Below are positions 59,072 to 61,753 of a DNA stretch of 64,000 nucleotides, one piece after another (the first letter of the stretch is position 1; every line of letters begins with the position of its first letter). A program made the translations under genes and the position numbers. The DNA is taken from NCBI GenBank assembly GCA_902543375.1, contig CACBYE010000005.1, positions 1-64,000 on the forward strand. The letters run 5' to 3'. Under the pieces are notes generated by a model, which worked only from the letters and a program-made list of their open reading frames with translations, was not told the DNA's origin and made no database searches. Source of the DNA: an uncultured Pelagibacteraceae bacterium (GTDB lineage Bacteria > Pseudomonadota > Alphaproteobacteria > Pelagibacterales > Pelagibacteraceae).

Positions 59072-59652
59072 TTATAGTTTGAAAGATATTGTTTTATCTT
59101 TTTTATTGGAAGTCCCATTATTGTATTTTTATCCCCTTCAATTCGTGAAAATAGTTTTCTTCCCTCCCCTTCAATTTGATAAACATTATAAGCATATAGT
59201 ACTTCATCTGAAATTTTATCTAAATAATCTATTAATTCATCATCTGTCATTTTTTTCATTGTTAAGGCTGCTTTGTCTGAATAATTCCAAACCATAGCAC
59301 CATTTTTAGAAATACAAACGGAACTGATCAAAAAATGTTTCTTTCCGTTAAGTTTTTTGAGTATAACTAAAGCTTCATTTCTATTGTTCGGTTTTGAAAT
59401 TAATTCACCATCTAGGTCTATCACACTGTCAGCCCCCAAAACTAAATTATCTTTATCAACAATGCTTATTTTGTTCGCTTTCAACTCAGCTAAGTTTTTG
59501 GATATAATTTCTGGAGAGGCTTTATCTTTTAATAAACTTATTTTTATAGTGTCTTCATCAATATAAGATGGCTTAACTTCACTAAAAATGTTATTTTCAT
59601 CAAGTATTTTTTTTCTTACCTTGCTTTTTGAGGCGAGAATGATTTTAAACAT
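59068..59652 (-). CDS. maf: Maf family nucleotide pyrophosphatase
   Basis: House-cleaning hydrolase of non-canonical NTPs. I start at ATG 59652 (MFKIILASKSKVRKKIL), giving 194 residues; an earlier start would run into the previous gene. Motifs ILASKSKVRKKIL, NLVLGADSVIDLDGELISKP and YQIEGEGRKLFSRIEGDKNTIMGLP are typical. It overlaps the PDRP stop by 8 bases. Confidence 0.95.
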   Translation of the reverse strand: MFKIILASKSKVRKKILDENNIFSEVKPSYIDEDTIKISLLKDKASPEIISKNLAELKANKISIVDKDNLVLGADSVIDLDGELISKPNNRNEALVILKKLNGKKHFLISSVCISKNGAMVWNYSDKAALTMKKMTDDELIDYLDKISDEVLYAYNVYQIEGEGRKLFSRIEGDKNTIMGLPIKKIKQYLSNYK

Positions 59653-60469
59653 CTTTTTTATAAATTTCGTAAATTTTAATAATTGAAGCTGCTGTTTCTT
59701 CAACTGATTTTCGTGTTACGTCGATTATTGGCCATTTATATTTTCTAAATGTATTTTTAGCGGCATCAACTTCTTTTTTAACTAAATCCATGTCTGTATA
59801 TTTTTTGTTTGAATTTTCTTTGAGAGAATTCATCCTATTTTTTCTTATCTCTACTAATCTCTCTGGTTCAGTATTAAGACCTACAACACATGCTATATTA
59901 GGATTTTCCTTTAAAATTTTTGGTAATGATTTATCGTTTACTAATGGAATATTTGAGGTCTTAAAGCCCTTGTTGGCTAAAAAAATTGAGGTAGGGGTTT
60001 TGCTCGTCCTGCTAACTCCTAATAGTATTATATCTGATTTTTGAATTTCTTTTATTAAATTTCCATCATCATGATTCATTGTAAATTGGATTGCTTCAAT
60101 TCTCTCATAATATTCCTCATCCATAGCGTATTGTCCACTAGGTTGGTGGGATGCCTTTTGATTTAAAAGTTTTGAAAAGCTTAATATCAAATCTCCTAAA
60201 ACACCAAAGCATGGTATTTTTTTCTCGTTGCTCGTTTTAGCTAGATATTTTGCTAAATTACTATCTACTATAGAATATAAAATTATAGCATTTTTGTTTT
60301 TTTCAGCATTTTCTAAAATTTTTAAAATTTGATTGACAGTCCTGGTAAACGAGAAAGTATGTATTTTATAATCAATATTTTTAAATTGAGCTTTAATTGC
60401 TATAAATATTCGATCTAAAGTTTCACCTGTAGCATCGGATATTAAATAAATTTGGTATAAATTATTCAT
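59645..60469 (-). CDS. Pyruvate phosphate dikinase regulatory protein (DUF299/PDRP family)
   Basis: Bifunctional kinase/pyrophosphorylase that switches pyruvate phosphate dikinase or PEP synthase. The 274 residues show YLISDATGETLDRIF, LGVSRTSKTPTSIFLANKG (P-loop-like, about 150-169), and WPIIDVTRKSVEETAASII. In alphaproteobacteria this gene borders the replication origin opposite hemE, exactly as here. Confidence 0.95.
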   Translation of the reverse strand: MNNLYQIYLISDATGETLDRIFIAIKAQFKNIDYKIHTFSFTRTVNQILKILENAEKNKNAIILYSIVDSNLAKYLAKTSNEKKIPCFGVLGDLILSFSKLLNQKASHQPSGQYAMDEEYYERIEAIQFTMNHDDGNLIKEIQKSDIILLGVSRTSKTPTSIFLANKGFKTSNIPLVNDKSLPKILKENPNIACVVGLNTEPERLVEIRKNRMNSLKENSNKKYTDMDLVKKEVDAAKNTFRKYKWPIIDVTRKSVEETAASIIKIYEIYKKDV

Positions 60470-60751
60470 GTAGTAATAATGTATAAGTTTGTACTACTTT
60501 TAACATATTGAAAATTTTTCATGTTTTTAAATTTTTGTTGTAAAACAAGGCTTTTATTAACAAAATTAAACATGTTGATAAATATTTTGGGTTTAGTGTT
60601 AATATACTTATTGAGCTACAATTTTTCAGGTATATTTACTAAATTTTAACTTCTAAATGTTAATTAAATGTTCATAAAATGTTTAAAAAACTTAATCAAC
60701 GTAATTCACAAACTATACTAATACTAATACTAAATATATTTATTAATTAAT
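60470..60751. other. Probable chromosomal replication origin (oriC)
   Basis: The 282-base gap separates the PDRP gene and hemE, the setting of oriC in Caulobacter and Rickettsia. It is extremely AT-rich. Sites of the form TTATNAACA occur at 60554-60562 (plus), and on the minus strand at 60573-60581 and 60669-60677; near matches lie at 60597-60605 and 60658-60666, and TAATTCACA is at 60702-60710. Each is one mismatch from the DnaA box TTATNCACA. Three tandem ATACTA copies (60715-60732) adjoin hemE and may be part of the unwinding element. Genes on both sides mostly point away from the gap. Confidence 0.8.
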
Positions 60752-61753
60752 ATGTCTCCTATCGAAGAAGTAATACTAAACAAAAAAACTGACATTAATC
60801 CTATTTGGATAATGAGACAGGCAGGCAGATACTTACCTGAATTCAGAGCAATAAGAAAAGCAAATCCAGATTTTATTAAATTATGTTTAGATGAAAAATT
60901 ATCTACCGAAATAACACTACAACCATTGAAAAGATTTGACTTAGATGCAGCAATAATTTTTTCAGACATTCTAATGTTACCATATGGATTAAATCAAAGG
61001 GTGGAATTTAAAAAAGGAGTTGGACCTATATTAGGTGAGCTAGATTTAGAAAGTATTTTAAAATTATCTGAAAACGACTTTGTTCAAAAAGTAAAACCTG
61101 TTTATGAATTAATTAACTCAGTAAAGAATAGTGAAATTACCAAAAATAAAAGTACTATTGGATTTGTTGGTGCACCATGGACTCTTTTGGTCTATATGAT
61201 AAATCAAGAGTCGCCCAAACTAGGCTTGAAAAAAAACTTTTTTGAAAATAAAAATTTAATCGATAAAACCTTAGTGGTTGTTGAAAAGTTTTTAAAAATA
61301 CATATTAAGTGCCAAATAGAAAGTGGTGCACAAATTATTCAAATCTTTGATAGTTGGGCTGGTTTATTAAATGAAAATGATCTCCAAAATTATATTTACA
61401 AACCCACTTTAAATTTAGTTCAATATGTTAAATCCTTAAACATTCCTGTTATATGTTTTCCTAGAAATATTAAAAATTATAAAAATTACTGTAATATTGT
61501 TAATCCGAGTGTTATTTGTATTGATTATAATACTGACCCGAAAGAAATTTTAAAAGATATTAAAATTCCAGTTCAAGGAGGAATGGATCCTAAAATTTTG
61601 TTAACAGACAAAGAAAACTTAAAAAAAGAAGCTAGGAAATATTTAGATATTTTTTTCGATCATCCTTATATATTTAACTTAGGTCATGGAATTTTACCTG
61701 AGACAGATCCTCAGATGATGGATTATTTAGTAAAAATGGTAAAAGATTATTAA
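60752..61753 (+). CDS. hemE: Uroporphyrinogen decarboxylase
   Basis: Decarboxylates uroporphyrinogen III to coproporphyrinogen III. The 333 residues contain PIWIMRQAGRYLPEFRAIR, the family signature with the substrate-binding Arg pair, FSDILMLPYGLNQ, IGFVGAPWTLLVYMI, and FNLGHGILPETDPQ near the end. It abuts hemH directly. Confidence 0.97.
   Translation: MSPIEEVILNKKTDINPIWIMRQAGRYLPEFRAIRKANPDFIKLCLDEKLSTEITLQPLKRFDLDAAIIFSDILMLPYGLNQRVEFKKGVGPILGELDLESILKLSENDFVQKVKPVYELINSVKNSEITKNKSTIGFVGAPWTLLVYMINQESPKLGLKKNFFENKNLIDKTLVVVEKFLKIHIKCQIESGAQIIQIFDSWAGLLNENDLQNYIYKPTLNLVQYVKSLNIPVICFPRNIKNYKNYCNIVNPSVICIDYNTDPKEILKDIKIPVQGGMDPKILLTDKENLKKEARKYLDIFFDHPYIFNLGHGILPETDPQMMDYLVKMVKDY

Follow-up and report, generated by a model that had tools for sequence, protein, structure and literature searches.

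The Caulobacter Cori and the origin of Rickettsia prowazekii are both located between hemE and a COG1806 gene, in gaps of 404 and 384 nt, respectively (PMC1914354). CtrA sites (TTAAN7TTAA) were described in Caulobacter and as missing in some relatives (PMC1914354); they are not a strict requirement for the class. DnaA-trios have the consensus 3'-GAT-5' (PMC8287927; PMC6669920). Epsilonproteobacterial origins show a lineage-specific preference at one position of the DnaA box, T5 (PMC5043019). No description of a SAR11 origin between PDRP and hemE was found in the accessible passages of the open-licence literature, and databases such as DoriC may hold a prediction.

The window, i.e., the whole stretch of DNA analysed here, comprises bases 1-64000 (64,000 nt) of contig 5 of a 1.07 Mb genome (20 contigs, 92% complete). 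The closest named matches of its hemE come from uncultured Pelagibacteraceae (SAR11 group) and share at most 90% identity with it. Below, g1 and f1 denote the genus and the family of the window; g8, f2 and similar labels stand for unnamed groupings. Judging from sequence comparison, the gap between PDRP and hemE is very probably the SAR11 chromosomal oriC:

60470..60751, no strand, 282 nt: proposed oriC, the PDRP-hemE intergenic gap, based on conserved neighbours, boxes, sampled skew and a profile
59645..60469, minus strand: PDRP/DUF299 (COG1806-type) gene, left neighbour; NF003742 300.4 bits (cut-off 225), PF03618 Kinase-PPPase 298.2 bits
60752..61753, plus strand: hemE, right neighbour; TIGR01464 308.7 bits (cut-off 302.95)

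Like the hemE-COG1806 origins described before (PMC1914354), this locus has the same flanking genes, an AT-rich gap (82% AT vs 70% in the window) and several DnaA boxes. It differs from them in its shorter gap (282 nt), in having mostly A6 boxes (A at position 6) and in the lack of convincing CtrA or IHF sites.

hemE searches yielded 51 named loci and matches in 87 of 101 genomes. Eighty-one loci were fetched; with the own-genome copy and two loci cut by contig ends dropped, 78 showed both genes. The window and all 78 of these same-genus loci have PDRP and hemE pointing away from the gap, whose length is nearly fixed (260-286 nt). Seventy-five distinct gaps were aligned. Motifs were counted in 93 distinct same-genus gaps of 260-289 nt, comprising the aligned gaps and 19 more from complete or near-complete genomes (L052 was dropped as the own genome, L021 and L050 as cut contigs, L295 as having no hemE motif, together with two g5 loci; identical gaps were counted once).

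Since PDRP and hemE diverge from the gap, both promoters must be located in or near it, and the conserved gap length would fit a shared regulatory region. The gap could then be merely a divergent promoter region under the control of DnaA or another factor, with replication starting elsewhere. We consider this very improbable: a Maf gene replaces PDRP in f2, where hemE still adjoins a gap of 271-281 nt that contains boxes; DnaA-type boxes are enriched in the 93 gaps; a trio tract adjoins a box; and the sampled skew of two relatives points to the gap or its vicinity.

The f2 loci with a Maf-like gene in the place of PDRP are L129-L131 and L310-L323. The assignment was tested for L311, whose left-hand gene encodes a Maf protein (PF02545, 126 bits); a search of the 2-kb loci L129-L131 gave no match to PDRP. 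In two g5 genomes (L156, L157), a hemE with about 32% identity to that of the window is located apart from PDRP.

The alignment of 75 gaps contains eight box-like positions. Together with the other elements of the gap they are, in the order of the window:

60478..60486, minus strand: box 1, with the consensus TTATNAACA among relatives and a degenerate form in the window (AATGTATAA, plus strand); position 6 is A in 51 and C in 22 of 75 gaps
60538..60546, plus strand: conserved island TTGTAAAAC; TGTAAAAC in 53 of 93 gaps vs 3.6 expected
60554..60562, plus strand: box 2, TTATTAACA, exact; position 6 A 63, C 12 of 75
60573..60581, minus strand: box 3, TTATCAACA, an exact match in the window but of poor conservation (mean column frequency 0.68); position 6 A 34, C 38 of 75
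60613..60621, plus strand: conserved island, AAGCTTCAA in many relatives and GAGCTACAA in the window; AAGCTTCA in 41 of 93 gaps vs 0.1 expected
60658..60666, minus strand: box 4, first of an array, consensus TTATTAACA, window TAATTAACA; position 6 A 56, C 14 of 75
60669..60677, minus strand: box 5, second of the array, TTATGAACA, exact; position 6 A 59, C 13 of 75
60680..60688, minus strand: box 6, third and last box of the array, with the consensus TTnTnAACA and reading TTTTAAACA in the window; at position 6, A in 65 and C in 7 of 75 gaps; two of its columns are invariant
60693..60701, plus strand: weak box-like site directly adjoining box 7, reading TAATCAACG in the window; A at position 6 in 67 of 75 gaps; no variation in column 60700
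60702..60710, plus strand: box 7, hemE-proximal putative anchor box, consensus TTATTCACA, window TAATTCACA; C at position 6 in 70 of 75 gaps; no variation in the last three columns
60715..60732, plus strand: putative DnaA-trio tract of NTA steps, three ATACTA hexamers giving six steps, 4 nt after box 7
60723..60752, no strand: AT stretch of low stability by nearest-neighbour energy, likely first melting site

Fifteen columns are invariant over the 75 rows, and 14 of these are located inside the box-like positions or the trio tract. The conservation difference between elements and the rest was reached by none of 281 circular shifts and the invariant count by one; as box and trio positions were named after the alignment had been inspected, this test is partly circular. 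The three sites listed in the initial annotation (boxes 2, 3 and 5) have mean column frequencies of 0.94, 0.68 and 0.84, compared to 0.70 outside the elements. A profile of 70 gaps, from which the window, three close relatives and G012 were left out, gave 154.5 bits for the window gap and 89.1 bits for the G012 gap, with the next match at 5.0 bits (about 0.95 Mb searched); within the window it matches the gap alone. The alignment over SAR11 gaps, proposed initially as a check, has revealed conservation of boxes, trio tract and length in the genus of the window.

Three exact TTATNAACA sites in both orientations had been reported for the gap, and they are found at 60554-60562 (plus), 60573-60581 (minus) and 60669-60677 (minus). 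Dinucleotide shuffles of the gap contain 0.19 such sites on average (2000 shuffles, P = 0.0015). It had been suggested that the origin reading would fall if the motif were no more frequent here than in other AT-rich gaps; the opposite was observed, as none of 134 other intergenic stretches contains two or more sites and seven contain exactly one (stretches of at least 150 nt defined by a simple ORF caller and taken from the window, from the 20 kb following it and from samples of two relatives). Across the window TTATNAACA is at chance level (9 vs 10.4), so it is the clustering in the gap that matters. The own genome contains 171 TTATNAACA sites and 222 sites for the reversed control pattern.

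Among the matches listed, another cluster of four TTATNAACA sites was located at G000:C2:151.9-152.4 kb. It was rejected as a rival, being inside two predicted ORFs with no gap: one of 222 aa and an open frame of 445 aa, which is presumably carB-like. No DnaA boxes were found within 300 nt upstream of dnaA in the five of 23 loci where a motif located this gene.

Boxes 4, 5 and 6 form a same-facing array with a spacing of 11 bp. The low-affinity sites of E. coli oriC, which are 2 bp apart, can be likened to this array. Further likeness to E. coli oriC (MG1655) is seen in the order of elements: TTATCCACA, a 13-nt spacer and CTAATAAGA follow each other on one strand there, in the same order as box 7 and the trio tract. 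E. coli oriC differs in its neighbours (mnmG, mioC), in its C6 boxes and in its control by IHF and Fis.

According to the initial annotation, all boxes have A in place of the usual C at position 6. This is true for the three exact sites but fails for box 7 beside hemE, since TAATTCACA has C6. Relative to the canonical TTATNCACA box, the three exact sites deviate at this position and the box 7 consensus does not; strict TTATNCACA has no match in the window gap, where A6 sites are present instead. Among TTATNxACA matches in the 93 gaps, x is A in 218, C in 92, G in 3 and T in 4 cases, compared to shuffle means of 15.1, 3.5, 2.0 and 15.4, respectively. A6 (TTATNAACA) is therefore 14-fold over the shuffles, C6 (TTATNCACA) is enriched as well, and T6 is under chance. 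A prevails at six of the eight aligned positions (boxes 1, 2, 4, 5, 6 and the weak box), C prevails in box 7, and box 3 is mixed. The A6 box type is real and conserved, with the hemE-proximal box retaining C. The idea of a lineage-adapted box gains support from the enrichment of A and C, not of G and T, at this position.

An origin could also carry A6 boxes that are simply C6 boxes worn by AT-biased mutation, with no functional meaning. The gaps are indeed extremely AT-rich (16% GC over 93 gaps) and A6 boxes coexist with C6 ones; in f2, where GC content is 28%, both types are about equally frequent (7 A6 and 9 C6 in 17 gaps), and in g168 even T6 is above chance (7 vs 1.3 expected, next to 9 A6 and 8 C6 in eight gaps). 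However, T6 is as AT-rich as A6, and in g1 it is avoided while A6 is enriched, which speaks against AT drift as the whole cause, the g168 count notwithstanding. That A predominates at six of the eight aligned positions (75 gaps) also argues against mere wear, which we regard as unlikely.

In three other sets A6 boxes were found with no C6 boxes: 35 in g8 (15 gaps), 12 in g6 and g7 (five gaps) and four in g169 and g172 (two gaps). Among 30 hemE loci (about 4 kb) from other Alphaproteobacteria, nine have none of nine box spellings and 21 have one or more; three single TTATCAACA- or TTATTCACA-type matches occur among these 21.

The ATACTA repeats had been described as three tandem hexamers resembling an unwinding element. 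The hexamers are present, all exact, at 60715-60732; the tract, which runs into the low-stability stretch, has the character of DnaA-trios oriented as in E. coli oriC. A is invariant (75 of 75 gaps) at 60717, 60720, 60723 and 60726, preceded by T in 73, 66, 41 and 73 gaps, respectively. The complement of the tract reads 3'-NAT-5', and the trio consensus 3'-GAT-5' appears as CTA on the plus strand. At least three NTA steps near a box are present in 68 of 93 gaps, compared to 9% of shuffles. The published rule for the basal unwinding system (BUS) is looser, asking for a box with at most two mismatches to TTATCCACA, a spacer of at most 16 nt and at least three trios with a middle A (NTN on the top strand); 90 of the 93 gaps pass it, yet so do 57% of shuffles. 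The window gap conforms to this rule with a box, a 4-nt spacer and six NTA steps. By nearest-neighbour energy, only one other distinct 30-nt stretch of the window is less stable than the one starting at 60724. These data support the initial suggestion of an unwinding element, here a putative BUS-like DnaA-trio tract.

Runs of at least three NTA steps within 30 nt near hemE were found in 66 of 93 g1 gaps, 8 of 17 in f2, 3 of 5 in g6 and g7, both gaps of g169 and g172, 1 of 15 in g8 and none of eight in g168; several f2 gaps have CTACTACTACTA trios. The weakness of trios in the sister genera g8 and g168 is one difference from the BUS. Another is the most conserved base, which in SAR11 gaps is the third of each step and not the middle one. 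Finally, the SAR11 box closer to the consensus is located by the trios and the weaker one upstream, reversing the tendency described in PMC8287927.

GC skew was sampled in two single-contig relatives, G012 and G110 (twenty 20-kb samples each, terminus assumed opposite; the samples of G110 cover its contig up to the last 135 kb). The six best origin candidates by raw GC skew are at 1240-1290 kb in G012 and at 880-930 kb in G110, with the gap at 1262 and 910.5 kb, respectively. Raw signs fit in 7 of 10 right-arm and 10 of 10 left-arm samples of G012, and in 8 of 9 and 6 of 11 samples of G110. A third-position measure, in which gene direction is removed, fits in 8 of 10 and 9 of 10 samples of G012 and in 8 of 9 and 10 of 11 of G110; it places the best origin at 900-930 kb in G110 and 40-90 kb off the gap in G012. 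T-A skew gave a weak signal, and twelve 4-kb samples taken earlier from G012 were noisy (7 of 12 fitted). In the window itself the skew change at the gap is weak; the likeness to the hemE-COG1806 origins in this respect comes from the samples of the two relatives. A skew minimum elsewhere, initially given as a refuting outcome, is contradicted for these two relatives by the sampled raw skew, which points to the gap or its vicinity. A further reservation is that a published table lists HTCC1062 among genomes whose replication arms are unequal (PMC2099444).

Overall, conserved neighbours and length, the sites and the skew sampled in two relatives speak for the initial proposal of the gap as oriC. 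As the gene neighbours match those of Caulobacter, a Caulobacter-type origin controlled by CtrA and IHF could be expected. TTAAN7TTAA occurs 39 times in the 93 gaps vs 27.6 +- 5.2 in shuffles, about two standard deviations above, and loose TTWWN7TTWW is well above them (1110 vs 791.6), with the reservation that boxes 11 bp apart can yield such matches. However, there is no strict CtrA site in the window gap, and none of the four OmpR-type regulators in the own genome (92% complete) is named CtrA. Where listed, matches to the CtrA model have 112.8 and 34.8 bits, the cut-off being 350. The IHF consensus (WATCAAN4TTR or WATCAN5WTR) has no match in the window; in the 93 gaps the two forms occur 0 times vs 5.0 and 39 times vs 35.1 in shuffles. 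The IHF-alpha gene is over the cut-off in none of nine f1 genomes, but also in just one of 14 control genomes. Pelagibacter is reported to be without ctrA (PMC2877005). The enrichment of consensus sites for CtrA and IHF is not convincing, and control of the Caulobacter type is hardly credible, the least probable of the alternatives considered here.

An orphan winged-helix regulator in which no full receiver domain could be recognised (L113:13635-14213; G000:C5 at about 77.6-78.2 kb) is encoded about 17 kb from the gap on the hemE side; it gave the weak CtrA-model match of 34.8 bits (cut-off 350). PF00486 matches at a similar distance from the gap are present in G012, G102 and G110. A CcrM homologue was reported for SAR11/Pelagibacter (PMC3973325), yet GANTC, which CcrM methylates, is rarer than expected in the 93 gaps (2 vs 12.1). 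The islands TTGTAAAAC and AAGCTTCAA are strongly conserved, keep their places in the gap and match no CtrA, IHF or GANTC motif; the latter is at a constant distance from PDRP and is confined to g1 among the groups examined.

DnaA is encoded elsewhere, about 62 kb from the gap in G012. DnaA matches were obtained for 97 of the 101 relatives, over the cut-off in 77, and for all 26 further genomes. Just ahead of the recognition helix E. coli DnaA has FGGRDHTT. At the same position f2 has FGG (30 of 30 loci), g5, g6 and g7 have F[ST]G (5 of 5), g8 has FAN (2 of 2), g1 has F[SA]N (23 of 23), and FAN was found in four g168 genomes among the matches listed. DnaA of the window's lineage has lost the first glycine of this motif. 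Outside SAR11 this glycine is retained, with the exception of G221, G171 and second matches in G145 and G230, among the rows listed; the class-wide survey was read by eye, and 42 of 241 genomes gave no match.

Residues of DnaA making base-specific contacts have been described (PMC5043019), and their change was considered as a cause of A6. R399, P423, R432-T435 and H439 are kept, and residue 438 is I in both SAR11 families, so this explanation was rejected. With the shift at position 6 and no reported base-contact residue clearly changed, SAR11 differs from the epsilonproteobacterial case. N at residue 431 was rejected as well: the G431 genera g6 and g7 also use A6 (12 to 0), and FGN is found in other Alphaproteobacteria. 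Of these changes only loss of the first glycine follows A6 use, and it does so loosely, f2 (FGG) having 7 A6 and 9 C6 and g168 (FAN) 9 and 8. As the two coincide at the family level, effectively as one evolutionary event, we hypothesise at most that glycine loss is a possible partner of the altered boxes.

We infer a hemE-type oriC in which the DnaA boxes are spelled in a lineage-specific way and the unwinding element resembles the BUS. By analogy with known systems, DnaA would bind the C6-type anchor box 7 beside hemE and also the mostly A6-type boxes, including the three same-facing ones 11 bp apart, perhaps with different affinity for A6 and C6. From box 7 it would assemble on one strand of the adjacent trio tract, stretching that strand; the AT-rich stretch beside hemE would then open and the helicase would load. 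We give a probability of about 0.87 to the reading of the gap as oriC with DnaA loading from a C6 anchor and mostly A6 boxes and opening via the trio tract.

A further-reaching version is speculative, and we are inclined to doubt it as a whole: recognition by SAR11 DnaA may have changed along with the glycine loss, A6 boxes being its normal sites; the C6 box would commit DnaA to the trios and the A6 boxes would serve as the assembly array; and with CtrA gone, timing might depend on a lineage-specific factor acting on the AAGCTTCAA or TTGTAAAAC island.

The location of the proposed SAR11 origin is ordinary for the class. What makes it a new variant within the hemE type is the way its boxes are spelled, the array of boxes and the absence of evident CtrA input. 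With a defined origin, the growth of SAR11 could be estimated from marker frequency, and A6 boxes may constitute a natural test of the evolution of DnaA specificity.
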